From: Antedon mediterranea
Lineage: Eukaryota > Echinodermata > Crinoidea > Comatulida > Antedonidae
Reading direction: 5' to 3'
DNA: 64,000 nt
Assembly (NCBI RefSeq): GCF_964355755.1
Contig: NC_092673.1
Coordinates: forward strand, 4,717,001 to 4,781,000
Both the position numbers and the translations under genes were made by a program. The notes under the pieces are model-generated. The model searched no databases. It was not told where the DNA came from and saw only the letters and a program-made list of their open reading frames with translations. Positions 14,512 through 47,700 of the stretch are shown here, piece after piece; the first letter of the stretch is position 1, and each line of letters opens with the position of its first letter.

Positions 14512-14580
14512 GGGGTTACTATTAGAGTGTGGGTTACTATTAGAGTGTGGGTTACTTTTAGAGTGTGGGTTACTTTTAAA
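14512..14580 (+). repeat. Short tandem repeat just upstream of the Deltex-like gene
   Basis: Four copies of an 18-20 bp unit reading approximately GTGGGTTACTWTTAGAGT lie 160-230 bp before the inferred start codon. Related single motifs (AGTGGGTTAC and TAGTAACCCA) occur at 14,289-14,340. The position fits a promoter-proximal array, but no regulatory role is shown. Confidence 0.6.
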
Positions 14581-14739
14581 AGATTTACGGTAACAGGACA
14601 TCATGTCTTTGCCTCGTCTGTTTTTAATCTCTCGCTATAGCAGCCATGCTTATCAGCCTTTTTTGTAAATAATTTTTCAGGTATATTGGTGTTCCGACAC
14701 TTGACATTTCTTTCTTGATTACAATGGCACCAAACAATG

Positions 14740-17700
14740 ATGGAAGACGAGGTTTGAATGTTTTTTAACTTTATAATTTTTTGTTAGAATTGTATTGATT
14801 TTGATTGGTAGTTACACAAGTCTATTATTACTATTAGCGCACCCATGTGTGAAATCCTGGATCTGCTTCCCCTTAATAATGGTCTCTTTGCGCTTTAAAA
14901 TTTTATTTTTTTTTTATCTCAGAAATTTTACACTATTATAGTGATAATAGCAGCCATGCTTTAATATAAAAGCATATAATAATACTATTATAATTCTAGA
15001 TTTTATAGATTAACTTATTTGTTGTAACTGCAGGTTTTTAGTGCTGTTGAGGCAGAAGTTCATTCAACATACATACCTGATGACTTTAATGATGATGCCA
15101 TCAGAGAACTCGAGAAGGATACAGATGTAAAATTTACAATCCAACATCACGAACACTTGCCTGACGTTTATATCGTTAAAGGAACTCTGCAAGCTGTACA
15201 GAAGGCAGGCTCTTATTTGCGAAACCTGTATAAAGATAGACAAAATGCTGCAGAGAATGTTAATCGTGGATTAGAAAAGGAGACTGATTATGTTAGTGGT
15301 GGAGATTCAAGAGTAAGAAATGCTACAAATGCAACTAGCTCTCAAAGACTAACATCTGAAAATGACAGAGATTTTCGACAGAACAGAAATGTTGCAGTGA
15401 GTGTTATTCCAGGAGTAGCAGTGGAAGAGACTGAATATGCTTGTGGTGGCAGGAAATATTTGAATGACATAGAATATGAGAAGTTCACTAAGTCATCAGC
15501 AGGTTATTCCTCCTATGACGCATCCAAATATAATTTCCCCATACAAGTTCAATGTTCTTTGACATTCAAGACACCAGTAAGACGTCACAATGTTTCAATT
15601 TATGTTGGAGATTTAACTAAAATCACAGCAGATGCAATAGTTTGTCCAACTAACTGTGTTTTGGGACATGAGTGTGGTGTTGCAAAAGTAATTGCTAAAG
15701 TTGGTGGGCGTGAAGTGACTGATGCTGCCAACAAATACTTGTTAAAAAATGGACCTCTGGGTTCATCTTTGGTCACCCACATTAGAGGAGGAAAACTTCC
15801 CTCTAAATTTATTATTTATGCTGTAGGACCTATTTGGAAAGAGTACCAAAATAAAGCAGATTGTTTCACCACATTAAAGTACACTTTCATGAATTGTTTT
15901 AAATATGCAAACAAGATATCAGTAACGCACATAGCTTTACCTCTCATTAGTTCAGGTAGGTTTAAAATCCTGTGGACAAACATGCGATATTTATTGATAT
16001 AAAGCAAATTATTGCTTGTGAAATACTGAGCAGTTAAGTCGTCCAATACCAGACACCTTTTGGCTGGAAAGTCTGGTATATTTTGAACATGTTTTTAGTG
16101 GTATTTAAAAAAAAGTTGTCATCAGAAGTTAATCTACAATAATACAGGCTTAACACTGTTTGAATAAACTTCCCTTATTTCACCCCACCCCTTCTTTAGA
16201 ACTTTGAAGATTTATATGAATATGCATGAATACATTTTAAGTAAAGCTTACAGTATGTTAGGATCAATGTTTTTGTATTAAAGAAAACTATTTTTCCAAT
16301 AGTGCTGAAAAGTGCTGTCTATGTAAATAATGATATAATACTACTTTATGTTTACACAGGAATATGTGGTGGGCCAATTAAAGAATGTTCTGAGGCTTTG
16401 TATGAAGCATTGATGGATTTTGATCGTATCAAAGTCAGAAAACCACTTGAAATCCATGTTGTTGATATCAATAATGAATCAGTGGATCATTTGCAGATGC
16501 TGTTTGCTGAACACCTCAAGTCTAACTCTGTTTCGTTCAAAAAGAATAGAGTAAAATCACCTGTGAGTAGAGGCACCATGCACAGTACCAATGTCAGCGG
16601 AAGAAGTGGTTACGCTTCAAGAAGTTCTCCAGTTTTGAAAGATTTTCCAATGACCAACTCCTTTGATGAGAAAAGAAGTTATTCAGGGAGTCCTGAAAGT
16701 ACCCGTTACAGGAATTCATCAGAACAATTTGAAGATTCTAGAACAGAATTAAGTTCCAATGGATATTTAAATAGAAATGGTTCACATGAGTCATCACTGG
16801 ACTTCTTGCCTAACAGATTTAATCAACCTTTATTGTCCTTCAAAACCAAGACAAATTGTCACAAAATTTCCATTTATTTTGGTGATTTAACCAAGATGAA
16901 AGCCGATGCTATTGTTAATGCAGCCAATTCTTACCTACACCATTTTGGAGGTGTTGCAAAAGCTATTGCTGATGCTGGAGGGTATAAAGTTGTGGAAGAA
17001 TCAAATAAATACATAAAAAAATGGGGCCCTCTATACCCATCTCGAGTCATTCAGACCAGCGGAGGACGTCTTCCAGCTAAATATGTTATTCATGCTGTTG
17101 GGCCTGTATGGAAAGACTATAAACATGAGAAAGATTGTTTGGACACCTTGAAAGCAACATTCATGAATTGTTTTCAGCTTGCATCAAAAGGTCTAGATAT
17201 TAAACATATTGCGCTTCCACTAATTAGTTCAGGTAAGGTTGAATGTTATCTTGAAATTAACCACAACATACTCCAATATTGTATTAATATTATAAATTTC
17301 ATATATTGTCTCTTTTTATTGGTTATCTTTCATAAAATGAACACAACTACAATTAAATTTATATTGATTTTTTCAGGTATATTTGGTGTTCCAATTGAGA
17401 AATGTGTTCAATCATTGTACCTGGCATTAATGGAATTCGATGTTGAGCGTAATTCTCCACTTGATATACACATTGTTGATACAAGTGTAGAAGTGATTAG
17501 ACATTTGCAGGCACTGTTTTCTCAGTACTTGAGGTTGGATGATATTCAATTTGATACAATGGAAAGCGATCGATCATTAACTCAAACTAAAGACAGACAA
17601 ACTGATGCATTGTCAAATGATAACCTTCGGTCAAAGCGAGCTAGTGAGTCTTCTAACAAACGTAATGTAGTTGATAAAATTAAGTCAAAGGTTAGCAAAA

Positions 17701-20276
17701 TGGGAAAATCAGATTTTAAGGTTAAAGAAAATGCCAAATTATCACCAACCAATGGTCCAATGAAAGCACTCTCAAGTCATCAGTCACAAGAAGAAGCATG
17801 GTTGCACAAAGTATTAGAAGAACATCAAAGAAAAGGATATCCACTTTCTGAATTCAAAGAAATTCAGAGTTTGTTTGATGGAAATACAAAAACCAAGAGA
17901 TCAAAAAGTTTGGGAAGACTACCAAGTAGAACTGTAGATTTGGAGGAACTGGAACTTAATACCAGTGAAAGACAGTCAAGGCGCAAGTCAAGGAAAAATA
18001 ACACCCTTGATTCTAAAGAACAACCTACCTATTCAAGAAATGAAAGTTCAGATAGGAGTGTTGAAAATAGTAGTAAAAGAACTGGTCCAAGAGCTAGAAG
18101 TCAAAGTTGGGATAGAACTAAGACAAAAGATGAAGAGAGGAAGAAGGAAAAGGAACAAGAATCAAATTATGCAGAAAGTATTGTTAAAAGAGAAGGTTCA
18201 AGAACTAGAAGTCAAAGTTCCGATAGAACTAAGACAAAAGATGAAGAGAGGAAGAAGGAAAAGGAACAAGTATCAGATTATTCAGAAAGCATTGATAATA
18301 GTAGGAGGACAAGAGAAGTTTTAAGGCCTAGAGCTCAAAGTTTAGATAGATACCACCAAAGGAGTGGAAAACAGAAAGATGCTGAAAAAGCGTTTACAGT
18401 TTCCTCTCAGCAACCTACATACATTACAAGATGTAGTTTCTGTCATGGCAAAACCAAGCTTCGAAAACGAAGGGATTGCTCACATATGATTTGCCAATTG
18501 TGTCGTACCATATATGCTGATAAAAGCACATGCTTTGATTGTAAGCAAGTTGAGAAAACTCATCTTGGCAATAATATTGAACATAGCAAAGAAGTCTCTA
18601 CAACAACTGAGGTTAAAAAGTATAGTATGCTTTCACCTACATTTGACTTGTCTGCCTTGTCAAGCAATTTCTCTGCAAGAAATTCTTCTGCTGCAAGAAC
18701 AAAAAGAAGAGAAAAACTAAGTTCTGAACAGAACCCACCAGATGAAATAACTCAAAGACAACAAAGAGATTACAGTGAATCCACTTCAAGCATTGCGAGC
18801 CAATCTCCAATGAAGGATATTAAACAATTCTTGCTACCACTACCAGAATCAGTAGAAGAAAGTTGTCCAATTTGTCTGTCTGACTGCCAAGACCCTGTGT
18901 CATTAAAAAACTGCAACCATATTTTCTGTAAGCAATGTATTATTAGTGCTTTTAAGGTAAGAAACATTTATTTAAATATAGCCTCAAAAACCAGTCTTAT
19001 ATATATCATTTAATTTTTTACTATGACAGTCAAGTGGTTAAGGCAAAGGTGCCAATAAAATCAGTACAGGTTCGACCATAGATCTGGTGGCAGAATATGT
19101 CTTCTCAAATAAGGAGTTAAAACAGGAGATACAGTGTACTACATATCTGACTTGTATGCACCTAGAGTGGGGTGTACTGGTCTACCTCAGCCCCATGGGT
19201 AGGTGCTGACCTAATTGGAATGTATGAATTTCATTCATTCATACAATTGCAAAACAAGACACTAGTTAGACACCAATCACCACCTCTCAGCTTGCATCGG
19301 TAAAATTCAGTTTAGTCTTGTTTTTCATTAGACAAAACCAGCTTGTCCAATATGTGGTGTAATCTATGGATGCCTGGTAGGAAATCAACCAGATGGAACA
19401 ATGGAGATTGGTAAAGTTCAATCCAGTCTACCAGAATATGAAGGTTATGGGACAATCATTATTCAGTATTATATTCCCTCAGGAATTCAAAATGTAAGTA
19501 CCATAAAAGAAATTTACACAAATGAAACTGCAATATTTTACCATTACCTCTGGTTGTACTGAAATTTCCATTTGTTGAAATTTATATATATCTGTTCTCC
19601 AACATCTAAACAGGAATCGCACCCGAACCCCGGGTCACGATACAAAGGAACATCAAGAAGTGCTTACCTACCAAACACTCCAGAAGGTCAAGATATCTGT
19701 AGACTCTTAAAGAACGCATTTGATGCTAAGCTTATATTCACAGTTGGTAGATCAGTTACTACTGGAGCAAGTAATGTGGTGACCTGGAATGACATTCATC
19801 ATAAGACTAGTTGTACTGGTGGGCCATCACAGTAAGTTTCGACAGATTTACAGTGCGAATGGACCTCTCTCAGGGTCTGTTTACAAATTTTGTTCCGGGG
19901 AATCCCTGGTATTTAATGATTCCTTATGGCTGTCCGTCTGGATTTAGCATGGCTTCTGAGGCCGGTTTGACCAGAAAATTTGCTGGGTACACACTGGTGG
20001 ACAGATAACTAGATTTGAGGATGTTCCTGGTGCCAGCAACACGTTTCAGGTGCTTATTTTGTAAGCAAAACCTCAATAAGATTTTTTTAATGTAGTTTTT
20101 TATTTAAATGTATAATGAAATCATATTGGTTCTAAGTAGGTACATTATGATTGCAATATTATAACGATTAAATAAACTATTCTGTAATGTTTGTTTGTTT
20201 GTTTAGATTTGGGTACCCAGATGACACTTACCTGGAGCGTGTCAGAGATGAACTAGCTGCCAAAGGCATACGTTGA
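14740..20276 (+). CDS. Macrodomain-RING-Deltex E3 ubiquitin ligase (DTX3L/PARP9-like)
   Basis: Predicted ADP-ribose-reading ubiquitin ligase. Exons: 14740-14751, 15034-15955, 16360-17232, 17377-18956, 19332-19493, 19614-19831, 20207-20276. All phases agree and total 1,278 codons plus stop. Order: four-residue first exon; KH-like region (about 5-70); macrodomain 1 (about 188-365); macrodomain 2 (about 477-657) with intact ADAIVNAANS and GGVAKAIADAGG; basic Ser/Arg/Lys-rich linker (660-950) with a tandem repeat; RING-like C3HC4 finger (about 954-996); second RING (about 1096-1142) starting CPICLSDC; DTC domain (about 1143-1278) with GNQPDGTM, YNIPSG-like IPSGIQ, HPNP, WNDIHHKT and the terminal FGYPD...L.RV.DEL. 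In vertebrates PARP9 carries the macrodomains and DTX3L the RING-DTC; here both are in one frame. Each macrodomain is split after SSG by a phase-1 intron. The first exon is the least certain part. Confidence 0.88.
18115..18290 (+). repeat. Internal coding repeat in the Deltex-like linker
   Basis: Two near-identical copies of about 95 bp encode the phrase SQS.DRTKTKDEERKKEKEQ followed by a tyrosine-serine-rich spacer (residues about 850-905). The repeat is charged and probably disordered. The paralogous linker at 29,221-29,870 stops before this block, so its presence in the ancestral copy cannot be judged. Confidence 0.75.
19020..19250 (+). mobile_element. tRNA-derived SINE in intron 4
   Basis: Begins with a tRNA-Leu/Ser-like head: CAAGTGGTTAAGGC resembles an A box and, about 30 bases later, GGTTCGACCAT resembles a B box. 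An unrelated body follows, then an ATTCATTCAT tail near 19,240. It lies within the intron before the DTC exons, in the gene's orientation. Confidence 0.65.
19832..20060. other. Unusual higher-GC block in the last intron
   Basis: The first 230 bases of the last intron are visibly richer in G and C than the neighbouring introns and stay open for about 60 codons in the plus frame 19811-20008. The minus strand reads a protein-like phrase broken by two stops. I do not recognise it. It could be a fragment of a captured gene or transposon. The GTAAGT donor at 19832 and the in-frame join to 20207 argue that it is not part of the Deltex protein. Confidence 0.4.
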
Positions 20277-27320: not shown

Positions 27321-27801
27321 GCAGGGCCATGGATAACCTAACTTGTCTTTTAACCATTGAGACGATTTTAAACACTGTTTAAATAATAGTATTTAAGAAG
27401 AAAACATTAGAAAAAGTCTCCCAGAAAAACTATGGTGAAATGATGTTGTTTCACAACTACTGTATATATGTATAAGTTGTTAAGCTATGTATAATAATGT
27501 ACAGTATGCACTTAATTTGTATTTTGATGGGTTTTGTTTAGATACGTCTTGTCAGGTCTCTTTTCAATTAGATTCCCATTCACAAATAAATCAGATTTCT
27601 TTTCTTATTTAACTCTTAGCAGCCTGCATGTATTTTTGTTTTGAGTTGTAAAGCAATTACAGGAATTTAATTTGATCTATATACAATGTATATACAATCA
27701 CTTTGGTGAGTAAAGTATTAAGAAGTAGCTCTTTGTGTACATTATTTGTAAAGCATCATACTAGTTACTGGTTTGTCTTTGTAGATACCCCATCCTAAGG
27801 A

Positions 27802-28677
27802 ATGATAATGGCAGATAATAATACAAGAAGATATTCATATCCTAGCCTAGAAATGCCATTAAATGATATTAAATATGGAGAAAAAGATATTATTGGACGA
27901 GGTGGAACAAGCATCGTGTATAAAGGTGTTTATAAAGATTTTCCGGTTGTGATTAAACATCTTAACCGTGTTCAAGAAATTGAAGTCGTTGCACTAAGAA
28001 TGATTAAAGATGATAAAGAAAGTAAACATATCGGTAGAAAGTTCATCACACATATTTTAGGGGTCATTACACAACCATTCCCATTGTACTGTATCGTAAT
28101 GGAATATGTAGCAAATGGGACATTACTAAAATATTTAAGTCAGAAACTGCAACAGCAACAACGTCTTGAGCATGACAAATTCTTCACATGGACCCGCCAA
28201 GGCGCCCTCGCAATACAGTATCTTCATGAATGCAAAATAATTCATCGTGACATCAAATCGCCAAATGTTTTAATTACTGATAAATACAATTTGAAACTTT
28301 GTGACTTTGGAATTTCCCGTATAACAGACCAGACAATTACAACAACATTTGCTGGGTCTATTCCATGGGTAGCCCCTGAAAATTGTAATTATGGGGCTCC
28401 TTGGTCAAACATAAAAGTCTCACCGCGTTCGGACATTTACTCATACGGTGTAGTGATTTGGGAAATGTGGACTTGTAGAAAACCAGATGTTTTGATTAAA
28501 GTGGATGGTATGTACCCGCTAGTTGAAGGGACACCCCTTAAGTTAAAGGATATGCTGCATAGTTGCTGGGAGGGAGATAGAAGGAAAAGGCCAAGTATTC
28601 CAGACATACTGAAAACTATGAAGGCTTTGTCTGTTACAATGGGGATTGAAGTCAAAGATTTTATAGAGGTACAGTAA
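27802..28677 (+). CDS. Protein kinase (TKL-like), possibly first coding exon of a kinase-macrodomain gene
   Basis: A complete catalytic domain in a single exon: glycine loop GRGGTSIVYKG (residues 32-42), VVIK lysine 52, HRDIKSPN with aspartate 150, DFG aspartate 168, APE-type VAPE at 190-193, SDIYSYGVVIWEM and a terminal RKRPS helix. All catalytic residues are present, so it should be active. The sequence looks most like the TKL/mixed-lineage group; the substrate is unknown. The start ATG lies 18 bases after a TTTGTAG acceptor-like site. Unspliced, the frame ends 291 codons long in EVQ and TAA. The last codons contain GAG followed by GTACAG, a phase-0 donor at 28668/28669 that would fuse the kinase in frame to KH/macro exons at 30702 or 31815. 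That fusion is inferred. Confidence 0.85.
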   Translation: MIMADNNTRRYSYPSLEMPLNDIKYGEKDIIGRGGTSIVYKGVYKDFPVVIKHLNRVQEIEVVALRMIKDDKESKHIGRKFITHILGVITQPFPLYCIVMEYVANGTLLKYLSQKLQQQQRLEHDKFFTWTRQGALAIQYLHECKIIHRDIKSPNVLITDKYNLKLCDFGISRITDQTITTTFAGSIPWVAPENCNYGAPWSNIKVSPRSDIYSYGVVIWEMWTCRKPDVLIKVDGMYPLVEGTPLKLKDMLHSCWEGDRRKRPSIPDILKTMKALSVTMGIEVKDFIEVQ

Positions 28678-29220: not shown

Positions 29221-29878
29221 ATGCCAAATGACAGACCTGGTGGTGACAAAGATGCTGTAAACAAAACAGTAAATGAGGTTGTGGAAGATTTAGCAATGAC
29301 CGACTTCTTCAATATTTCGGATATTGAAATTGATACGATGGAAAGTGATCGATTTTCTAATAAAGGACAAACTGTTGCAGTGTCTAATGGCAACCTTCGG
29401 TCAAAGATGGCTGAGGAGTCTTCTAGCAAACGTAACTTCCGTGATAAAAATAAGCCAAATTTTAACAGAAAGGATAAATCAAATTTTAAGTTTAGAGGAA
29501 ATGCTAAATTATCACCAACAAATGGTTCAATGAAAAAAATCTCAAGTCAGTCAGAAGAAGTAGCATGGAAGTATTAGAAGAACATAAAAGAAAAGGATGT
29601 CCACCTTCTGGATTCAGAAAAATTCAGCATGCGTTTGATGGAAATACTACAAAAATCAAGAGATCAAGTAGTTTGAGCAGACTACCAAATAGAACTGTAG
29701 ATTCGAAGGAAACTACTTCTTTGTTTGATGGAAAAAACAGAACAAGAAGTTTGGAACCTATTTCTGGTGAAAGACAGTCAAGGCGTGATTCAAGGAAAAC
29801 CGACACCTTTGGTTTTAAAGAACAACCTGCCTATTCAAGTTTAGATATCTGGATAAAGAAAGTCAAAGAGGTACAGTA
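29221..29878 (+). pseudogene. Detached linker exon fragment of a Deltex-like paralog
   Basis: Clearly related to the linker following macrodomain 2 of the gene at 14,740-20,276. Shared phrases include DTMESDR, AKLSPTNG, VLEEH.RKG, and RTVD. The frame from 29221 (phase 0 after a TATAG acceptor) runs to a stop at 29575-29577. Comparison with the intact gene shows a 7-bp deletion just after GCATGG, and the homologous reading continues in another frame to 29878. The 3' end (GTCAAAGAGGTACAGTA at about 29,855) resembles the end of the kinase exon, so the piece seems to be joined to a second kinase-exon remnant. Probably non-functional, although an upstream exon could still splice into it. Confidence 0.72.
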
Positions 29879-30117
29879 GCATTTCTATAAATGTTTCTGA
29901 AGAGACAATACAGTTGTAAAAAAAATGATTTTATAATTAGTTATCGGCACTTGGCAGATAACCCCTTGTTATTGTCAGGATCTTTGTTTCTTATTCTAGT
30001 CTTTCTTTCCCAACATTTTGTTGCAGCTGTATCTCTAATCCTTGTCAACATAAAATTGTATTGCTTTGTCAAAAGATTGACCTCAAGCTGTAATTGTGCA
30101 GGAAACTTTGTTATATG

Positions 30118-30420
30118 ACGTTAGAGTCGCGCAGCGTAAGTTATGCGCGATTTTATGAAATGTTTATGGTTGCTCATAAATTCTGAACAAAAATTTATTT
30201 TTCAATGAAACTTTACGAAAGTGTATTTCATAATATTGAGCAACTTTTTGACATGATAAAAATGGCATGCTTCGCAAAAAATTATGCGTGATTACGCGCA
30301 TTTAAGATTTCAAAAAATGCGCAGAATTAATTTAGCGTACATTTCAGGTCATTTTGCGCATTTCAAAATGTTATAATTTGTTTGCGCTTTGCACACAGCT
30401 AGCACAAAGCATAGAAAAAT
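30118..30420. mobile_element. Degenerate relative of the GCGC-rich element at 34.6-35.5 kb
   Basis: Begins AGAGTCGCGCAGCG and contains repeated GCGCATTT/ATTACGCGC motifs, TTTGACATG and TCATAAATT phrases like those inside the element at about 34,611-35,516, but without the GACCGAC arrays. Non-coding. Confidence 0.5.
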
Positions 30421-30701
30421 GGTTTTTGTTTTTCATACCACCTGTAGTAGTTTTCATTCATTTTGATGAACTCTAATTGCAAAATGTACGTTAAACTTTA
30501 ATACTAATAATAATTAAAGAATAGGTAATTTAATGCAAATTTGTTTCAGTATATTTCAATCTGTTATAGCTCCTCTTAATGAAAAGTGACCCGGATGATT
30601 AAATATTATTATGGAAGCTGTTAAATTGCAGATATGAATTCATATAAAAATTGTGTTTATCTGATGTCATGACGTCATCATATGACTTGTTCTACTTGTA
30701 G

Positions 30702-31048
30702 GATTTTAGTGTTGTTGAGGCAGAAGTTAAATCAAAATACATACCTGATGCCTTTAATGATGATGCCATCAGAGAACTCGAGACGCATACAGATGTAACA
30801 TTTACAATCCAACATCATGAGCACTTGCCCGATGTTTATATTGTTAAAGGAACTCTGCAAGCTGTAGAGAGGGCAGAATATTATTTGCGAAAGCTGTATA
30901 GAAATGGACAAAAAAATAGTGATTCTGAAGTGATAGATGCAGAAGACAATCAACACCAATGCAAGTCAGTTACAGGATGTCATGAGGATTCAACAGTAAG
31001 AAATTCAACTACACCATTAAGGCGACTGTTAACTAAGACTAATCTTTA
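30702..31048 (+). pseudogene. Truncated KH-like exon, duplicate 1
   Basis: After a TTGTAG acceptor the frame reads DFSVVEAEV...YIPDAFNDDAI, then VYIVKGTLQAVERAEYYLRKLY. This is the phase-0 N-terminal exon of the Deltex-like gene in a second copy. Homology fades after about 80 codons. The frame stops at 31046-31048, before any macrodomain. It could act as an alternative terminal exon of the kinase transcript, but it is more simply a remnant of unequal exchange. Confidence 0.7.
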
Positions 31049-31814
31049 AAAATGTAGATATAAATTCATATAAAATTTATATGCCTGATGTTTTGACGTC
31101 ATCATATGGCAAGCTGAATTTAAAAAGTATTTTTTTCATCTCTTCCGTCATTTACTTACAAATTTAAAAGAGCATGCACCACGCTTCTACGCGTCCAATT
31201 TTCTTCCAATTCTTATATCCTTTTGCTCAAATCATTATCATTCCGAAATTGCCATCTTCATGTTTGATTTTGATGGTGTCATCATAGCAACAAATGAGAA
31301 CATTTGTGGGTCCCAAAATTTCACCTATGCTACACTGTATATAGATAATATACATAATGTATATATTAATAATACATAATGTATATATTAATAACACATA
31401 ATAGGCACAACTCAGCACCACTATAAGCGTATGCATCAGATCATAGGATGGAATACGTCAACGTTTTGCACTTATATAATTTATAATAAAGTATTTAAAA
31501 AAATTAATGTCAGTAAAATTATTTTTTATCACAATGATCACCTATAATTCAATTCTAGTTTTTTGTTGGAATTTGATTGATTTTGTAGATTGGTAGCTTG
31601 AACAAGGGGTGCACCCTTAAACCCTTTACACAAGTCTATTACAGTATTACTATCAGTGCAACCATGTGTGAAATCCTGGATCTGCTTGCCCTTGATAACG
31701 GTCCTTTTGTGCTTTAGAATTGTTATTTCATCTGAGAAATTTTACACTATTATAGTGATAATAATACTATTATATCACTAGATTTGATAGATTAATTATT
31801 TTTTCTAACTGCAG
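31049..31814. other. Duplicated intron 1 of the Deltex-like locus
   Basis: The stretch 31,590-31,814 matches 14,815-15,033 of the intact gene (for example CATGTGTGAAATCCTGGATC in both), so the duplication was of genomic DNA and not an mRNA copy. The part before 31,590 has no recognised content. Confidence 0.7.
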
Positions 31815-34362
31815 GTTTTTAGTGCTGTTGAGGCTGAAGTTAAATCAAAATACATACCGGTACCTGATGTCTTTAATGATGATGCTATCGGAGACCTTGA
31901 GACATACACTGGTGTAAAATTTACAATCCAACATCACAAACACTTGCCTGACGTTTATATCGTTCAAGGAAATCTGGAAGCTGTACAGAGGGCAGACTCT
32001 TTTTTGCAAAAGCTGTATAAAGATAGACAAAATGTTGCAGAGAATGTTAATCCTGGATTCAAAGTGCAAGAGACTCATTATGTTAGTGGTGGAGATTCAA
32101 CAGTAAGAAATTCTACAAATGCAACTAGCTCTCAAAGACCAACCTCTGAAAGTGACAGCGATTTTCGAAAGAACAAAAATGTTGCAGTGAGTGTTAGTGC
32201 TAGGTTAGAGACTGATTATGCTAATGGTGGCACGAAATATTTAAATGACATAGAATATGAGAAGTTCACTAAGTTATCAGCAGGTTATTCCTTCTATGAA
32301 GCATCCAAATGTACTTCTCCAAGACAAGTTGAATGTTCTTTGACATTTAAGACACCAGTAACCCATCACAATGTTTCAATTTATGTTGGAGATTTAACTA
32401 AAATCACAGCAGATGCAGTTGTTTGTCCAACTAATTCTGTTTTAGGACATGATGGTGATGCTGCTAAAGTTTGTGGATATATGTATCCATATTCAGTCAA
32501 TCATACTAAAGGAAGAAAACTACCCTCTAAATGTATTATTTATGCTGTAGAACCTGTATGGAACACAACCAAGAATAAAAGAGATTTTTTTCTTTTGTTA
32601 AAGAAAACATTCATGAATTGTTTTGAGTATGCATATAATTTGTCGATAAACCACATAGCTCTACCACTAATTAGTTCAGGTAGGTTGAAGAGACAGATGT
32701 ACTGATTTGTTTATATTGAATGAGTGCACATATTTAATTAGCCAATCTTTAATTAGGCAATATAATATTTTTTTATACATGTAAATATAAAAATATGATA
32801 TTAATTTACACTGTTTGAGTCTCAACCCCTAAAGGGTCTTTCACACCTGTTCCGGCTTGGTTCCGGTCTGGCGCCGGCAAATCAAGTCGAACGTCAATGT
32901 TTCATTTTTACGCGGCTACACGCATATCGATTGGTGCATAGCCTCATAGAGCGTTGTGAACAGGTGTGAAAGACCCTTAAGCGTTCCATTCCTCATAGGA
33001 GGCACTGAAGAGTGACATTGGTACAGTATTATACATTGGAAAGGTTTGTGAAATACAAGAGACTGGAGAAATGCCAATAAAGCATACTCAAATGTCCTGT
33101 TCTGTAAAGTTCTGCATATTTTACACTGATATTACTTTATGTTTACCTAGGAATTTATGGTGGGCCAATTAATGAATGCTCGGAGGCTTTGTATGAAGCA
33201 TTGATGGATTTTGACCGTATCAAATTTAGAAGACCACTCGAAATTCATGTTGTTGACATCAATAATGAATCAGTGGATCATTTGCAGATCCTATTTGTAG
33301 AGCACCTTAATTCACATTCTATTCCATTCAAAAGGAATAGAGTACCATCACCTCTGAGTAGAAGCACAATGCACAGTACCGACATCAGTGGAAGAAGTGG
33401 TTACGCTTCAAGAGGTTCTCCAGTTGTGAAAGATTTTCCAATGATCATCTCCTTAGATGAGAAAAGAAGCTCTTCAGGGAGTCCTGAGACTACCCGTTAC
33501 AGGAATTCATCAGAACAATTTGAAGAGTCTAGAAGAGAATTAAGTTCCAATGGATATCTACATAGAAATGAGTCATCACTAATCACCAACAGATCTAATG
33601 GACCTGTTTTGTCTTTCAAAACAAAGAAAAATTGTCACAAGATTTCCATTTATATTGGTGATTTGACAAAAGTGAAAGCTGATGCTATTGTTAATGCAGC
33701 CAACTCTCAACTAAGACATGTTGGAGGAGTTGCGAAAGCAATCGCTGATGCTGGAGGGTATAAAGTTGTAGAAGAATCAAATGAATATGTCAGAGTATGG
33801 GGCCCTCTATACCCATCTCAAGTCATTCAGACCAGCGGAGGACGTCTTCCCGCTAAATATGTTATTCATGCTGTTAGGCCTGTATGGAAAAACTATAAAC
33901 ATGAGAAAGACTGTTTGGAAACCTTGATGGCAACATTCATGAATTGTTTTCAGCTTGCATCAAAAAGTCTTGAAATTAAAAATATTGCGCTTCCACTAAT
34001 TAGTTCAGGTAAGGTTAAAATGTCTTTAATAATTTATTTATTTTCTTGGGAATTATAACCACAACATACTCCAATATTGTATTAATTTTATAAATGTCAT
34101 ATATTGTCTTTTTTTATTGGTTATCTTTCATAAAATGAACACAACTACAAATATATTGATTTTTTTCAGGTATGGTGTACCAATTGAGAAATGTGTTCAA
34201 TCATTGTACCTAGCATTAATGGAATTTGATGTTGAGTGTAATTCTCCACTTAATATACATGTTGTTGATACAAGTGTGGACGTGATTAGACATTTGCAGG
34301 CACTGTTTTCTCATTACTTGAAGTTGGATGATATTCAATTTGATACAATGGAAAGCGATTAA
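31815..34362 (+). pseudogene. Macrodomain paralog with damaged macrodomain 1 and frameshifted end
   Basis: Duplicate of exons 2-4 of the intact gene: 31815-32679 (KH-like plus first half of macrodomain 1), 33151-34008 (end of macrodomain 1 and most of macrodomain 2), and 34170 onward. The first two exons are fully open with conserved phases. Macrodomain 1 has lost about 20 residues around the GGVAK loop (GHDGDAAKVCGY). Macrodomain 2 keeps ADAIVNAANS and the glycine loop, but the paralog reads HAVRPVW where the intact copy has HAVGPVW. In the third exon a 4-bp deletion next to the acceptor shifts the frame, and splicing there would stop at 34213. In the unshifted frame there is a TAA at 34360-34362. 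It is either a pseudogene or a shortened kinase/macro protein if joined to the kinase exon. Confidence 0.75.
32833..32977. mobile_element. MITE with AGGGTCTTTCACACC termini
   Basis: A 145-bp element with inverted ends AGGGTCTTTCACACCTGTTC and its complement, flanked by TAA at 32830-32832 and 32978-32980. It lies in the intron between the two macrodomain exons of the paralog and is absent from the matching intron of the intact gene, so it inserted after the duplication or was lost there. Confidence 0.85.
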
Positions 34363-34610
34363 TTATAAAGTCAAACGTATCAGAAATTATCTAAAGAAAG
34401 ACAAACTGATGCAGTGTCTAATGGCTGATGAGTCTTCTAGCAAACTTAACTTCCTTGATAAATTTAAGAAAAATTTTAACAGAAAAGAGAAATCAGATTT
34501 TAGGGTTACCCAGAATTTTAAATTATCACCAACAAATGGTTCAATGAAAAAAAATCTCAAGTCAGTCAGAAGAAGTAGCATGGTTGCATAAAGTATTATA
34601 AGAACATAAA
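34363..34610 (+). pseudogene. Broken linker of the macrodomain paralog, left part
   Basis: Matches the linker of the intact gene (DESSSKLNFLDKFKKNF, LSPTNGSMKK) but in shifted frames with several stops, including one in the VLEEH phrase at about 34,597. The homology stops at about 34,608, where a mobile element begins. Confidence 0.75.
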
Positions 34611-35516
34611 AAAACAAGGCCAACAGCCATTAAGTCGCGTGCTACAATGCATAATGATACCGGACCGACAGACACAGACCGACAGACAGACCGACCGACA
34701 GACAGACCGACCGACATAGTGAACTATAGTCGCGTCCACGCGACTAAAAAGGCATAATTTTGACGAATTTTTTAACTTTTTCATCAAAAACGTGCGCAAA
34801 TTATCCAAATCGACGTGCTCGTATGACGTAGTTTTAAGTCGAAATTGTTTAAAAGATGGTAAAATTATTAGAAAAGGCTGCAAAAACATAAATCACGCGA
34901 AAAAAGTATGTATTTAACGCTACGTGCGCACCACGCGCGTAAAAATTTGCGCGCTTATGGGAATTTTTGACATGCTCAAAATGACAAGAAACGCGTAGAA
35001 AGTTGATTAAAAATGAATTTTGCGCATTTTAAAATGTGCGCGCGTAACTTTATGGCTTTGTGACTCATGGCAATTTTGTAAACGCTTAAAATTGCCTGAA
35101 ACGTACTCTTATTTCATCGAAAATAAATTTTGAAAATTTTAAGCGCGCGTACGCATGCGTTACATGCGCTACGTACGTAATTGTATTGCCATATGATGAT
35201 TTATGCCCTGAAATTTATGAGTACCAAATTTTATTTAATTGTGATTCATGGTTGTGAAGATATGATTACAAACGTGATTTCGTTAAATCGTGCGTAGACC
35301 GCGTAATTTTTTATTGCGCACCGTGAAAACATAACCACATCGATTCCTGGCCATAAGGAATATACTGTGAAAAATTGACTTAGCTAGATTAAACTGATAT
35401 CAAGATAAGGTCAGAAAGCGATAAAACGCATGGTGATACCGGACCGACAGACAGACCGACAGACCGACAGACCGACCGACATAGTGAACTATAGAGTCGC
35501 TTCCACGCGACTGAAA
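34611..35516. mobile_element. Element with GACCGACAGACAGACC arrays at both ends
   Basis: About 900 bp of foreign DNA interrupts the paralog's linker; the homologous sequence resumes at GATGTCCACTTTCTGG. Both ends carry GATACCGGACCGACAGACA arrays followed by CATAGTGAACTATAG and GTCGC...CACGCGACT. The interior is rich in GCGC motifs and has no coding potential. The two end modules are in the same orientation, so this may be a non-autonomous element with direct terminal modules or two nested copies. Confidence 0.7.
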
Positions 35517-35715
35517 ATGATGTCCACTTTCTGGATTCAGAAAAATTCAGCATGCGTTTGATGGAAATACTCCAAGAGATTAAGTAGTAGACTACCAAAT
35601 AGAACAGTAGACTTGAAGGAAGCTAATTCTGGTGAAAGACAAGGCACAAATATATGGAAAATTACAATTTCAACTTTGTTGTAGAGATGAACTATCTGCC
35701 AAAGGCATACGTTAA
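35517..35715 (+). pseudogene. Right part of the broken paralog, ending in the Deltex C-terminus
   Basis: Linker homology resumes for about 120 bases, then jumps at about 35,680 to the last coding codons of the intact gene (DEL.AKGIR, stop TAA at 35713-35715). Both RING fingers and nearly all of the DTC domain are missing, so a deletion removed the catalytic half of this copy. Confidence 0.75.
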
Positions 35716-36455
35716 CTTCATGTCCTGTTCTTGTCGTAGGACGTAGGATTAGGAAGAACTAGAGACAAGATGAAAGTATCAATTTAAGTCTGAAATAGTA
35801 TACAACCCGTGGCTCTCAATCCGAAATATGAATATTTTATCCACAATTGTATTGCAGACAAATTTCATACACATTTATAAAGTGTAATTTCTAATAGAAT
35901 ATATGTGAAATATATTTAGAGATGTATAAAATGAAAAGGAATAAGTTTGTATCATGTGTGATGCATGTTACATTATAAGTTTTCTATTGTATATTAATCT
36001 ATATATTTGAGGAAATAAAAAAAAGTGAAATCTTCTTCTATAATAAAACTATAACTAATACATTATCTTGTGTACTCCACAGTATTGCATATCTTTAGTT
36101 GTGGGGCATAATATATGGATAAGAACAGAGGTAAAAAATAAGTCACATTCTCAGTATAAAAGAAATTGTAATTTAAAAATGAAATGTAACTAAATAATGG
36201 CAGAAACAAAACTTCTGAAGCAATTTATATTTAATAATGAAGTTACTGTCAGATTAATATTTAATACAGTATTATTTGAATAAACTAACCTTTATTAGAT
36301 TTAGAACTCACTGTATGTTTAGTAGATAGTCTAAGATATGTATATAAGTTGGTGATTGCACAGAATATGAATGAATGTAATTGACTGTAGTAGTTTGTAT
36401 ACAACAAATTGTTGGAATTAAACCTTGGTTCCCACTATGACGCAACGCAAGGAGT
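35716..36455. other. Duplicated 3' flank of the Deltex-like locus
   Basis: Matches parts of 20,277-21,060 (for example TATGTATATAAGTTGGTGATT in both, read here in two overlapping pieces). A fragment of the GGTTCCCACTA MITE family starts at 36,424. Non-coding. Confidence 0.6.
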
Positions 36456-36459
36456 TTTG

Positions 36460-38335
36460 CAAATATTAAGTAATTTGACCAATCAACAAGCAACTGTAAA
36501 GACAGTACAACATATAACTTATATAGAAGTTACGAAATAAAGTAAAGCGAGGAATTGAAGCTGCCAAAACTAAGTATTTTTCAACTAGAATAAGACACCT
36601 ACGGCACAATGACTCACGAAAATGGCACTCGCAAATTAAAGATTTAACATCATCTAAAATGGGTCGAGATCTAAATATTAATGTTACAGACATATCAGCC
36701 TCTGATCACTTAGGTATTGCTAATGCAATTAATTCCTAGTTTGCTAGCATTAATAATGACATACCCACCACTAGACTATTGTATTTTACCGGCATATTTG
36801 CCATGTAACAGTCCTGTACCGCAAGTTAAAGAATGGGAGGTTTATAATAAGTTAAAAACCAACCCACATAAATCAGTAGGACCTGATAAAATACCACCCT
36901 TAATTCTTAAAGAGTTTGCCCTTGAGTTAAGTGAACCCCTTACTAATATTTTAAATTGCTCATTTAGGGAAGGAAGTCTCCCCTCCCAATGGAAATCCAC
37001 TGTGACTGTTCCTACCCCAAGGTACACCCACTAAAAATTGATAAGTTAAGACCTATCTCGTTAACATCTGCCTTTGCAAAAGTGGCAGAGCAATTTGTTT
37101 GTGAGTGGGTGGTGGTATCTGATATCCAGAATAAATTAGATGTAAGACAGTATGGCAATGTCAAGGGGGCATCAACTAGCCACTACTTAGTACGTCTAGT
37201 TCATGATATGTGTTCTGCAGCCGAGGAAGCTCATAACATCGGGACGGTTGTCCTTATGGACTTCACTAAGGCCTTTGATCGAATTGAACACAACACCTTA
37301 ATCAATAAAATCATCGACATTGGAGTCCGTGGGTCAATCGTCCCTTGGATTTGCAGCTTCCTCAGCTGCAGAGAACAATGTGTAAAATATAACAACTCCC
37401 TATCAAGTGTTATCACGTTAAAAGCTGGTGTCCCCCAGGGGACTAAACTTGGTCCCATTGCATTTAAAATCATGATCAATGATGCTGTTAAGGGTGCTAA
37501 AACGAAAGCTTTAAAATACGTTGATGACCTATCTGTTTATGAAAATCGTAAGATAACACAACCAGGTCACTTGCAGCATGATCTTAATGAGTTTCATGAC
37601 TGGTGCTAAAGGAATGTTATGGACCTGAACCCTGCTAAATGCCAGGCACTACAAATATGTTTTAGTAAAAGGAATATTCCTGAAAATAAAATTTATATTG
37701 GAGGTAACGAACTAGCATTTGTCACCCATGCTAAAATACTTGGAGTCACTTAAAATGGGATAAGCATATTGGGGATATTGTCCTCAAGGCTAATAGGAAG
37801 CTTTTTATTTTAAGGAGTCTAAAAAAATTTGGCTTCAACCCTGATGAACTATGCTCCATCTACTGTGGGTATATTAGACCCCTCCTTGAATATGCCGATG
37901 TCGTATGGCACCCCGGCTTAACCAAATCGCTTAGCAATTCTATTGAATCAGTCCATATTGGGAAGGGATCACTGATAGGAGAATAGCTCACAGTCTCAGA
38001 TTTGCCAAGGGAATATATGAGACTGTTCATTCTGCTGATCTTTTACCGGTGATACGGTTTGAAAGTCATGGGAGGTTGCTCCGTAATAGTAACAAAATTT
38101 CACAATTACCATTACATCCAGAACCGCCCGTTTCAGTAACAGTCCAATCCCTTATTTTATCCGCCTGCTTAACGCCTAATCTACACTCATCCTTGTATTA
38201 TTCATTATATTGTATGTTTCATATTTTGTATATTTTTATTGGTTTAAGGTACATGCATGTAAAAGTTACCCACAATCTGGCCTTTGACCACTAGTGGTAA
38301 CTTGTGGCATGGTGGTTTTTAATGTTTTATATGAA
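36460..38335 (+). pseudogene. 5'-truncated, frameshifted non-LTR retrotransposon reverse transcriptase
   Basis: Conserved reverse-transcriptase blocks are readable in broken frames: SVGPDKIPPLILKE (about 36,873), LRPISLTSAFAKVAEQF (37,045), VLMDFTKAFDRIEHNTL (37,250), AGVPQGTKLGPIAF (37,425) and the catalytic YVDDLS (37,518). There is a frameshift near 37,020 and stops at 37,607 and 37,751. No endonuclease was seen, so the copy is 5'-truncated and dead. It sits within the duplicated 3' flank, which resumes at about 38,340. Confidence 0.85.
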
Positions 38336-39594: not shown

Positions 39595-40975
39595 CGCTAC
39601 CTAAAAGTGGACTTGCCCTACCTAAAGCCTGTTTTCCTGTCGACGTTATTCGACGCTATCGTTAACAAAAATCGGCGATCTTCTACGTAAACATTAACAT
39701 TTTAACGATTTACAGGAAAAGGTACTTTTTTAACTAACGACGACGATACAAAATGTCGGCGATTTACAGGAAAAGGTGTAATAATCGACGGTAATCGACG
39801 CTACAAGTCGCGATCGTTGACAATCGCAAGAGTTGAATCCAGTTCAACTCTAGCGATATCGCAACGCTAAAACGTAAGAACTGACCAATCATCATGGCGA
39901 TACAGCACATGACGTCACATAATTGATGGCAAATTCTGCTTACTACATTTATTTTTGTTGCATCGCGGCGCGGTCAAAGCTAGGCCTAGCCTTACCAAAG
40001 TTACTATAAAATGATGTTCCGGAAAGTAAGTGCGGGAATATTAGGTAGGTCAAAGTTTTCAGCCTAGTCCAAAATGCTATTTGGACTAGGATAGGCCTAC
40101 TGAAAACGAAGAACCATCTGTATAGAGATATTAGTATGCCTAGGCCCACGTGTCCTACACTGTGAGCCTACTGCTAGAGGCAGGGGAGTCCTCTATTCAT
40201 TTTTGCGCGTTACGACGACGTCGAGAAAGAAGACCGGAGTTTCAACTCTAACGTTCAACGCTAGAAATCAAATGTTCGCGCTATCGTTAACATTTCAACT
40301 TGATCGTTTTCAAACGATCGTCGTTGAACTTTTAACGATTAACGACGATAGCGTCGACTAACGTCGACAGGAAAACAGGCTTAAAAGTGGACGTGCGCTA
40401 CCTTAAAGTGGACGTGCGCTACCTAAAATTGGACTTGCGCTACCTAAAATTGGATTTGCGGTACCTAAAATTGGACTTGCGCTACCTAAAATTGGATTTG
40501 CGCTACCTAAAATTGGATTTGCGCTACCTAAAATTGGACTTGCACTACCTAAAATTGGACTTGCACTACCTAAAATTGGATTTGCGCTACTTAAAAGTGG
40601 ACTTGCGCTACTTAAAAGTGGACGTGCGCTACCTTAAAGTGGACTTGCGCTACCTAAAAGTGGATGTGCGCTACCTAAAAGTGGATGTGCGCTACCTAAA
40701 ATTGGACGTGCGCTACCTAAAATTGGACGTGCGCTACCTAAAATTGGATGTGCGCTACCTAAAATTGGATGTGCGCTACCTAAAAGTGGACGTGCGCTAC
40801 CTAAAAGTGGACGTGCGCTACCTAAAAGTGGACTTGCGCTACCTAAAATTGGACGTGCGCTACCTAAAAGTGGACTTGCGCTACCTAAAAGTGGACGTGT
40901 GCTACCTAAAAGTGGACTTGCGCTACTTAAAATTGGACGTGCGCTACCTAAAAGTGGATGTGCGCTACATTAACT
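39595..40975 (+). repeat. 21-bp minisatellite, split by an inserted element
   Basis: About 28 copies of a 21-bp unit, consensus CTACCTAAAATTGGACTTGCG with variants GTGG/TTGG and GACG/GATG/GACT. Two copies lie at 39,595-39,625 and the rest at 40,382-40,975. The period is a multiple of three, which gives an uninterrupted seven-residue repeat (LDLRYLK type) from 40387 to 41034; this is a by-product of period length and I do not call it a gene. Confidence 0.9.
39626..40381. mobile_element. 756-bp inverted-repeat element inside the minisatellite
   Basis: Ends are AGCCTGTTTTCCTGTCGACG and its complement, continuing inward over CGACGCTATCGTTAA. TAA occurs on both sides (39623-39625 and 40382-40384), and removing the element restores the minisatellite phase. 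The 3-bp TAA duplication and the lack of a transposase suggest a non-autonomous PIF/Harbinger-type element. Confidence 0.85.
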
Positions 40976-41768
40976 ATAAACTATTAGTAACAAATAATGG
41001 CAAGACATACTTGTGTGTAATAGTTTTACATTAGCTTAAATAAAAACCATAGAGATACTAATAAACACCTACGAGACATTGATTTGATGCAAACAGGGCA
41101 GGGACTTTCAAAATGGCCGCTGTGTATTTGTTACGTATAACATTTTTGTTTTTATAAATTAAATCTATTGTTAAGGGAAATAAAAAGGAATGTCTTTGTA
41201 AAAGTATTACATTTTCGCATACAAGATTGTATAAGAATTCTCATGTTAACTGCTCAACATGCAGACATAATGGGGCATGAATAAGTATTGGACGCAGCTT
41301 CAATCTGGCTGATAGTAGACGCAGCCATTTTGTATGGTCTGTTTCCCTGAACACTTTTGAGCTGTTAATGAGTGCAAGTTAACACTATAGTAGTTTAGTA
41401 ATATCTCTATGAAAAATACAGAACGACAGAATTGACGTAATACGAAAAGAACAATTAATTAAATGTATTTTTAAGTCCAAAATATGGGGTGTTTAACTGT
41501 AATAATTCACATTCTCCAATGATGTGACCATAAAGAATGGAATTGGTGTTTTCTATATATCTAGGCTTCAGTCTAGACTTATTCATATGGTATTTTTTTT
41601 TCTAGTCCACACATGTGTATCTGTGCAGAATTGGTTAATTGTCTCGTCTCATATCTATACATGTTTCTGAATAATCCATATCATTAAGACATTTCAAATT
41701 ATATAATAAATAATATAAAACTTTCCTACAATACGTACTACTATGCAGATTCTTGAAGCAGTGTAACT
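40976..41768. other. Non-coding stretch between the two loci
   Basis: AT-rich, no exon seen. It separates the plus-strand Deltex-like locus from the minus-strand Skeletor-like locus and should contain the 3' UTR of the latter; I could not single out a clear polyadenylation signal. Confidence 0.5.
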
Positions 41769-44700: not shown

Positions 44701-47700
44701 CCACCTAAAAAACAATGAAACGGCAATCAATTTAACATTGCTATCCACTGGCATTATGTAATGGTAAAAAATGTGTTGTATTCTGGTAAATCCTTTATCA
44801 AACATTTCTGGAATTACAGGGTTTTAGTACAAAATGTAAACAATTTTGTTGCATACTATTTCATTTCATTTCATAATAACATTTATTTCCTTCATAATAT
44901 ACAAAATAAATAATATAATACACAAAATTCATGACGAGAAGAAAGATAGTTAAAACAATACAATTTTTTTTTCTCATCTTTAACATGAATAAAACAATAT
45001 TATGAAGGAGGCACAATTTCTAAAAAGCAAAAGCTTGTGTTGAAAGTGCCTGAACAAAACAAAAAGTAACTAAAATCAAATTAGTAAATAATAGTAAATG
45101 GTATATAGGAATAAAGTAATTACCATGACGGAATATGAAAACAATAAAAAACTGATACCTAGAATAATTAATTTACTTTTGTATTAGATATTGTTTAGTG
45201 TTAAAGACGAAGCTATGTTTGTTTGCAGAAGTTGTAATTTTGTTAGGAAGTGAGTTCCATATCTTGGGTCCAGTAAATCTAATATTATGTTGAAAAGAAG
45301 TCTTTTTATGTTTAGGAATATGAAGGTTATTGAGGATTCTTGTGGAATAGCCGTGAAATTCATAATTGGGAGAAAACATATCGCGTAAATGAGATGGAAG
45401 AAGAGCATTTTGGCTTTTGTAAATAAATAAACATTGTTGGAAAATATTAATATCTGTTAATTTTAATAATTTGAGAGAACGAAATAAAGGATCTGTACTA
45501 GTTCTAGGTGAAACATTCGAAATTATTCGAATGATTTTCTTTTGTAGTATTTGAAGTTTATTTAAATTAGATGGGAATGTGTTACACCAAACGATATTGC
45601 AATATAAAAGATATGGCAAAACAAGGGAGCAGTAGAGTGTTCGGAGAATATGATGTGGAAGAAAAGATGCCAGTCTACAAATTATACCAATATTTTTTGA
45701 GATTTTGTTTTCTGTCTCAATAACATGGGGTTTCCATGTCAGACGACTATCAATGGATACACCCAAAAATTTTGCATGATTGACCATGGGGAGAACAGAA
45801 CCATTTAGTTTAATTTGCAATGGACCTAATTTAATCGGCATCGTACTACTTCTAAACAAAACATAGCTGCACTTTTTTAGATTTACAGAAAGGCTGTTTG
45901 CCAGAAACCATTCGGATACATTAATTAAACTTGTATTTACAGTGTTAAATAACGACTCTAAGTGTCGATTTTTACAGATTAGTGTTGTGTCATCTGCATA
46001 TAAAAAGTAAGATAAAGATACTGACGAATTGTAAATATCATTCACATATAAAAGAAACAGAAGAGGACCTAGTATATACACTTCTTGTTAAAGTTTCTTT
46101 GTATTTTTATGAAGACAAATAAAATTGATTAATTTTATATATTTCTAAACATTTTCTCTAGATATTCATAATTGTTGGCCTTACCACGTTCAATATGTCG
46201 AACAGCAAGTCTATCGGCATTAATCTGTCCAATTGACCAGACTATTTGAGTTGACCCGGTCGTTGAAATTACTTTGTCGCCAACACTATCTCCTAAAAAT
46301 GCAATAGATGTAGTAACATTACCTTTTTATAAAACAGTTATATTATGGTTAATACTATTCAGATCTCTCTCACTTCATTAATATTCCTGAGGAGGAAGAA
46401 TATGAATATTCATTAAGTTTCTGCACAGGAACGGCTTTCTAGGTTGGGTCTATCGTCACTCGAAGATAGACGTAGTAGAGGTGACATGATTGAAACTTAT
46501 AAGATTATTCATGGTCTCGAAAATGTTTGTTTTTCTGATTTTTTTTAATTTCAAAAAATTCTGCTGGCCATTTTACACGAGGTCATCCTTTTAAGTTGTG
46601 TAAACCTTGGTTTAATACCTTTAGTAGAGCTTCTTTCTTTGATATACGTATCATAAAGGTAAGGAATTCATTACCTTATCACATTGTTTCACAGCACATA
46701 AACCTATAGGAGTAATTACTCTTTGCCTCCTCATTTCACTAAGAAGCATCACTAAGGTAAGTAATGTATAGTTACAACTAGCATTTTCCCTGTTGACACC
46801 CCTGATTATACCAAACAACATACAGATAGAGGTTTATTGACACCTACCTGTATCTAGCTTTCTACTGAATGCGATTGATGTTACTCCATTTAACAACACT
46901 GCAGAGGCATCGTCAACGTCATTGACAGCTCCAACCTCTGTGTCAGGACAAGCCCCGCTACCACCTGAACACTGAAGATAAATCATATTAATATTGTTTA
47001 TTGTTTTTAATAAATTAAAGATACAGATACAAATCAAAAGAAGTAATTTAAAGTAAAGAAGTTTTTTGTAAAATAGAAAAAAATTAATTTGGATTTTCTT
47101 TTTGAAACACCAATTTTCCACTTATTACGATAACCTACCTGTGCGTATGCAGTTAACTTGTAATCCTGGGCTCTGCCAATATTTCCGTCAAACCATGCCA
47201 CTGTTACATCAGCGCCAAACATCAAAGTACTACTTGTTGATCCACTTAGTCCAAATGCCATGTAATCATTGACGTTGACACGTCCACGAAGTTGTATATC
47301 TATGACATCATCATCTCTAACGGTCCAACTTACTTGAAGGCGCTCATCAAGTTCCTCACAGTTGTCATATTCATTAACAAGCTTTAATCAAAATCAAAAG
47401 AATGTAAAAATATTGTAATAATGTGTGCCTAAATATGGATGGATTTCATAATTTTAAAAAACAAGGTACGACGTCTACATAATTTCCGAAAATTTTAGGA
47501 AAATTATGTTATCCAGTCAAGGTAGAGTTGTGGCGAGTTGCATTGAATTGCGCTGAATTAACAGGAAAAGAGGGTAAAAATAAATTCTAAAAATGGTTAT
47601 AATCTGCCATCTACTTCTACACTCTTCAACTTCAACGATACGAAACTGACCAATCATATGGTTCACAAATTACGTCATATGTGCTGACAATTATTGAATT

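Follow-up and report, generated by a model that had tools for sequence, protein, structure and literature searches.

The window analyzed here, a stretch of 64,000 nucleotides (nt) from the crinoid Antedon mediterranea (contig NC_092673.1, positions 4,717,001 to 4,781,000), contains a gene of seven exons (14737-20276, plus strand) whose product is probably a Deltex E3 ubiquitin ligase of the DTX3L class with ADP-ribose-binding macrodomains of its own. Its spliced frame of 3,840 nt specifies 1,279 residues and a stop codon. In vertebrates, DTX3L, a maker of ADP-ribose-linked ubiquitin, works with the macrodomain-bearing PARP9, and an earlier sequence-only reading of this stretch took the crinoid gene for a joining of a PARP9 half to a DTX3L half. 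The single gene, the DTX3L-side DTC domain, and a plausible function have stood up; the merger of PARP9 with DTX3L has not.

Domain architecture and gene model

The Pfam search of the translation, proposed as a check by that reading, matches each of the expected families: Macro in two stretches (E = 2.1e-50), RING (zf-RING_2, residues 1099 to 1138, E = 1.8e-07, with a C3HC4 pattern at 1100 to 1138), and DTC (residues 1147 to 1278, E = 9.5e-60). No PARP domain, such as PARP9 has at its C terminus, is found in this search. The RING domain (RING2 below) is followed directly by the DTC domain, as in Deltex E3 ligases.

The DTC domain has its best PDB match in DTX3L (172 bits), followed by DTX2 (142 bits) and DTX1 (135 bits). 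Like that of DTX3L, it lacks the one- or two-residue insert that is present in the canonical Deltex proteins, namely, DTX1, DTX2, and the product of a DTC locus on contig C3 of this genome (L011). In a tree of eight DTC sequences, which does not include DTX3 or DTX4, the window gene, three paralogs from the same contig (C4), and human DTX3L are separated from DTX1, DTX2, and L011 by a split supported at 100/100; the grouping with DTX3L, which had been set as a test, is recovered. Within the family, the predicted domain falls with DTX3L, opposite the canonical Deltex proteins with which it shares the RING-DTC arrangement, and a tree of this composition does not separate DTX3 from DTX3L. At the level of residue presence, H1246 and E1272 take the positions of the DTX3L catalytic His/Glu pair. 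They are the equivalents of H707 and E733, because the alignment is ungapped and the spacing of 26 residues is the same; PMC10810221 names these two in DTX3L and gives H582/E608 as the pair in DTX2. Since this pair is kept, binding and ubiquitination of ADP-ribosylated targets, as suggested before, is plausible as a prediction. A search for viral relatives of the DTC domain gave 82 pattern matches, none of which was confirmed. Relative to DTX3L, the crinoid protein has a pair of macrodomains and a further RING-like finger in addition; vertebrate DTX3L is not known to have a macrodomain.

The extra finger, RING1 (18432-18542, plus strand; residues 956 to 992), precedes the main RING and was overlooked in the sequence-only reading. 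It was recognized by its C3HC4 pattern, which is matched by 0 of 20,000 shuffles of residues 656 to 1090. An AlphaFold2 (AF2) prediction of RING1 made without an alignment (mean predicted local distance difference test [pLDDT] score, 58.6) was not used.

GT..AG ends are present at all 6 introns, with consistent phases, so the seven exons with macro, macro, RING, and DTC domains in one frame are as had been described. The one difference concerns the start: two ATG codons are adjacent, and the previously assigned one, at 14740, is the later of them; the frame opens one Met codon earlier and gives 1,279 residues rather than 1,278, with the rest in agreement. All exons are on the plus strand. The proposed exon 1 (14737-14751; 5 codons, 15 nt) is the least certain part of the model. 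Exon 2 (15034-15955; residues 6 to 313) encodes the N-terminal region and the first part of macrodomain 1 (macro1), and exon 3 (16360-17232; residues 313 to 604) encodes the end of macro1, a linker, and the first part of macrodomain 2 (macro2). Exon 4 (17377-18956) is a single open frame across residues 604 to 1130 and contains the end of macro2, a long charged linker, RING1, and most of RING2. The end of RING2 and the start of the DTC domain are in exon 5 (19332-19493; residues 1131 to 1184), the DTC core including H1246 is in exon 6 (19614-19831; residues 1185 to 1257), and the end of the DTC domain, including E1272, and the stop codon are in exon 7 (20207-20276).

Introns 2, 3, and 4 interrupt macro1, macro2, and RING2 at places where the frames of the three C4 paralogs (L007, L009, and L010) read through, and removal of introns 5 and 6 rejoins a DTC domain that aligns without a gap to human DTX3L. 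On these comparisons, the weak points of the predicted gene are confined to intron 1 and the start codon. An out-of-frame ATG is located at 14724, 13 nt upstream of the proposed exon 1, and homology to a second, degraded copy of the gene in the window starts only at 14812.

Because exon 4 alone holds the end of macro2, RING1, and most of RING2, the macrodomains and the RING domain are joined without any splice. Transcripts ending between the macrodomain and RING exons, named earlier as an outcome that would speak against a single gene, lose most of their force for the same reason. A mis-joined model, with the macrodomain half and the RING-DTC half transcribed apart as two genes, can draw on intron 3, which is 144 nt long, open, and in frame, so that other transcript forms are possible. 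However, three other loci encode everything from the Macro domain to the start of the DTC domain in one uninterrupted frame, and, together with the content of exon 4, this makes two separate genes hardly credible.

Macrodomains and their relationship to PARP14 and PARP9

For both macrodomains, the highest-scoring PDB entries are macrodomain 1 (MD1) of PARP14 and that of PARP9, with PARP14 MD1 at the top. Introns 2 and 3 interrupt them at the same place, after LISSG and in phase 1, and the two group together in trees (96/96 with the outgroup and 92/92 without it). One of them therefore probably derives from the other.

The macrodomain tree was rooted with Escherichia coli YmdB and included seven DTC-linked macrodomains, two macro-only genes, and three PARP MD1 sequences (from the PARP14-like gene of this genome, human PARP14, and human PARP9), with no PARP MD2 or MD3. 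When rooted, this tree places the DTC-linked and macro-only sequences together, apart from the PARP MD1 sequences, with support of 98/99; the three PARP sequences are mutually unresolved. When the outgroup is removed, a split between the PARP sequences and the remaining nine has support of 100/99, with the window pair adjacent to the PARP sequences. A clade of window and PARP macrodomains is weakly rejected (P value of the approximately unbiased test [p-AU], 0.047); the nesting of the macro-only genes among the seven DTC-linked macrodomains leads to rejection of a clade restricted to the latter (p-AU, 0.0007). The window macrodomains appear to form a separate lineage close to the MD1 of macroPARPs, a placement that depends on the root and comes from a tree without MD2 and MD3.

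The macro-only genes are each encoded in a single frame, at C4:162254-162991 and C4:165516-166295 (L015) and at C4:55516-56547 (L016). By eye, both L015 genes open with an apparent membrane-spanning stretch. The tree included one of the two L015 genes, and its macrodomain and that of L016 fall among the DTC-linked sequences.

A true merger of a PARP9-like gene, providing the macrodomain half, with a DTX3L-like gene, providing the RING-DTC half, would be consistent with the PDB scores, with the position of the window pair in the tree without an outgroup, and with the common bidirectional promoter that human PARP9 and DTX3L share at the PARP14 locus, as stated in PMC13224862. Against it, the window contains no PARP match (weak ones may be missed), the rooted tree places the window macrodomains with the DTC-linked ones, the clade with PARP sequences is weakly rejected, and the same paper describes PARP9 as a vertebrate-specific duplicate of PARP14. 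We consider the merger improbable. Because of the missing PARP match, the vertebrate origin of PARP9, and macrodomains that fall outside MD1 in the rooted tree, a DTX3L-class ligase with its own macrodomains is preferred. The two parts that PARP9 and DTX3L bring together as a complex would then reside in one chain instead of two. PARP14, like the crinoid protein, has several macrodomains, but it ends in WWE-PARP where the latter has RING-DTC.

According to PMC10221186, hydrolase activity of macrodomains goes with Asn/Ser and Gly in loop 1 and a hydrophobic plus an aromatic residue in loop 2. The macro2 loops, VNAAN..FGG and SSGIFG, fit this rule, and those of macro1, VCPTN..ECG and SSGICG, depart from it. 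Thus, macro1, without the hydrolase loop residues, is probably a reader, and macro2, which keeps them, could also be an eraser. Erasure might even be the main role, with macro2 as a working ADP-ribosyl hydrolase and RING-DTC mainly aiming it at ADP-ribosylated or ADP-ribosyl-ubiquitinated sites; MD1 of both PARP14 and PARP9 is a hydrolase according to PMC10499325. This appears unlikely, as the DTC His/Glu pair and the C3HC4 residues of the RING are kept, which is unexpected for a mere aiming module, and the loop residues are changed in macro1 and in the macrodomain of L010.

Paralogs, degraded copies, and other features

Genome-wide (354 Mb, 18 contigs), 13 DTC matches are listed. They fall into five loci, namely, the window gene, three further sites on C4 (L009 at 713 kb, L007 at 731 kb, and L010 at 25.16 Mb), and L011 on C3 (6.60 Mb); this search scores the best candidates only, and further loci may exist. 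Among the matches listed, four of the five loci are linked to a macrodomain, and no Macro match is found near the C3 locus. The three other C4 loci encode Macro, two RINGs, and the start of the DTC domain in one uninterrupted frame (L007, 452 residues; L009, 540; L010, 586). By eye, the RING pairs of L007 and L009 resemble a recent tandem duplication and so need not share the event that produced the pair in the window gene, and the first RING of L010 looks more like that of the window gene. L011 seems, again by eye, to carry a WWE domain.

DTX3L has RRM and KH-like domains at its N terminus. Upstream frames at L007 and L009 contain KH_DTX3L matches beside the macrodomain (E = 4e-5 and 8.7e-5, respectively, both below the curated cut-off) and are taken as parts of these genes because strand and order agree. 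These and the RRM-like frame at L010 are weak KH/RRM-type matches of the kind found in PARP14. In the window gene, a KH-like fold of the N-terminal ~70 residues is possible: AF2 run with the three window copies gave a low-confidence beta-alpha-beta-beta-alpha order (mean pLDDT, 32.5; block means, 36 to 60 over residues 1 to 70). A tblastn search of the window with eight frames taken from paralogs and PARP14-like sequences revealed no upstream RRM exons; apart from the macro, RING, and DTC matches already described, its one hit was at 14521-14619 (E = 0.28), a repeat by eye.

L010 is on the minus strand, and its macro-DTC frame ends at 25,161,891. An RRM-like frame that is possibly part of the same gene ends at 25,165,632 (NID, E = 0.0058; RRM_PARP14_3, E = 0.011; both below the cut-offs). 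Opposite to it, plus-strand frames contain RRM_PARP14_1 (E = 0.0014, below the cut-off; from 25,177,995), RRM_PARP14_3 (2.2e-07), Macro (2.4e-20), WWE (2.3e-07), and PARP (2.8e-10) matches and are read as one predicted PARP14-like gene at C4:25.178-25.191 Mb. L010 and this gene stand head-to-head, ~12 kb apart, or 16 kb apart if the RRM-like frame is not counted. The segment making up most of the gap (L012) has no Pfam match in the 10 frames scanned out of 12 of at least 85 codons. The arrangement is suggestive, in that it resembles the human PARP9-DTX3L pair; a gap of at least 12 kb is no shared promoter, and it is the paralog L010, not the window gene, that faces the PARP14-like gene. The window gene itself has no head-to-head macro-PARP partner, as none of the 20 PARP (PF00644) matches listed genome-wide is in the window, where weak ones may be missed. 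The region C4:25.178-25.214 Mb contains, in addition to the PARP14-like gene, probably a second one in tandem, as seen from Macro and PARP matches.

Two partial copies of the gene are located 9 to 16 kb downstream of it in the window. The second copy (31626-36386, plus strand) retains the macro exons, a broken frame of exon 4, and the tail of the last exon near 35683; RING and most of DTC were not found in it. The original order of the two macro exons and the DTC tail is preserved in it, which suggests that these parts were duplicated together. Fragments of a third copy (29320-30913, plus strand) comprise an exon 4 linker at 29320-29839 and an exon 2 start at 30687-30913. Within the second copy, GACAGACCGACC-type repeats at 34640-34740 and 35430-35510 flank, by eye, a stretch of ~0.9 kb that is perhaps a mobile element.

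The ratio of nonsynonymous to synonymous substitution rates (dN/dS) between the window gene and the second copy is 0.33 for exon 3. For exon 2 it is 0.70, and for the exon 2 start against the third copy, 1.07 (74 codons). Between L007 and L009, dN/dS is 0.565 (452 codons), with 0.44 for the macro part, 0.31 for the first RING region, and 0.79 for the N-terminal part. Selective constraint on the gene family is visible in these comparisons but modest. The exon 2 ratios and the degraded neighbors could mean that the window gene is itself decaying and possibly non-functional; with an intact frame of 1,279 codons, consistent splice sites, catalytic residues in place, and the low exon 3 ratio, this is very improbable.

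Other features of the window include a single open frame for a protein kinase domain (27799-28677, plus strand; PK_Tyr_Ser-Thr, E = 1e-41), located downstream of the gene and ahead of its degraded copies. Minus-strand frames with DOMON (47034-47387, E = 3.6e-12) and DM13 (53180-53557, E = 6.6e-07) domains perhaps belong to a Skeletor-like gene. Reverse transcriptase fragments (RVT_1) are found at 36968-37609 (plus strand, E = 1.2e-22) and 45173-46087 (minus strand, E = 3.4e-09), and a long tandem array at 40336-41034, with repeats such as LRYLKLD, is open in several frames on both strands.

Predicted activity and origin

In the proposed mechanism, the macrodomains would anchor the enzyme to proteins or nucleic acid bearing ADP-ribose, and the RING would recruit a ubiquitin-loaded conjugating enzyme (E2-ubiquitin). 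The DTC domain would bind ADP-ribose and activate its 3' hydroxyl, to which ubiquitin would be joined; alternatively, ubiquitin might be placed onto a nearby lysine. Macro2 may trim ADP-ribose. The mark would likely be written by an enzyme of the PARP14 type, whose gene is on the same contig, and one chain would match the task of the vertebrate PARP9-DTX3L complex, minus the PARP part.

Several observations weigh against the DTX3L-class ligase with its own macrodomains, in addition to the exon 2 dN/dS values. An active macro2 would strip the very mark that the DTC domain needs. The DTC tree has only eight sequences, without DTX3 or DTX4; support for a group of the four fused DTC domains is 34% (200 bootstrap trees), and the order within the DTX3L side is unresolved. 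RING1 is below the Pfam cut-offs (zf-RING_5, E = 0.011), and intron 1, with an exon of only 15 nt, does not have the junction support of the other introns. A KH domain at the N terminus is not significant in Pfam (KH_1, E = 0.24, searched at E ≤ 10), and hhalign of this region against the KH_DTX3L region of L007 and L009 gave a probability of 0.2.

The sequence-only reading had left the choice between an ancestral arrangement and a lineage-specific fusion, and the comparison made here covers one animal genome. Domain databases may contain invertebrate entries that combine Macro and DTC. A macro-RING-DTC fusion is not described in the titles and abstract openings of the literature searched, a search that covered papers rather than protein databases. 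Tentatively, the vertebrate PARP9-DTX3L module might descend from a single KH-macro-RING-DTC gene, adjacent to PARP14 and head-to-head with it, that this genome still keeps. On this view, the macrodomains would have been lost from vertebrate DTX3L and would now come in trans from PARP9, a spent PARP14 duplicate across the shared promoter; in the crinoid, the locus would have grown into a small set of related single-chain enzymes that read and write, and perhaps also erase, ADP-ribose-ubiquitin marks.

The discovery of ADP-ribose-linked ubiquitin as a signal is recent, and a natural single chain of this kind would be a compact tool for testing how the reading, ubiquitinating, and removal of ADP-ribose are coordinated. 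The gene would also offer a clue to the origin of the interferon-linked PARP9/DTX3L/PARP14 cluster: two jobs that are split between partner proteins in vertebrates appear joined here, which may show how their partnership began.

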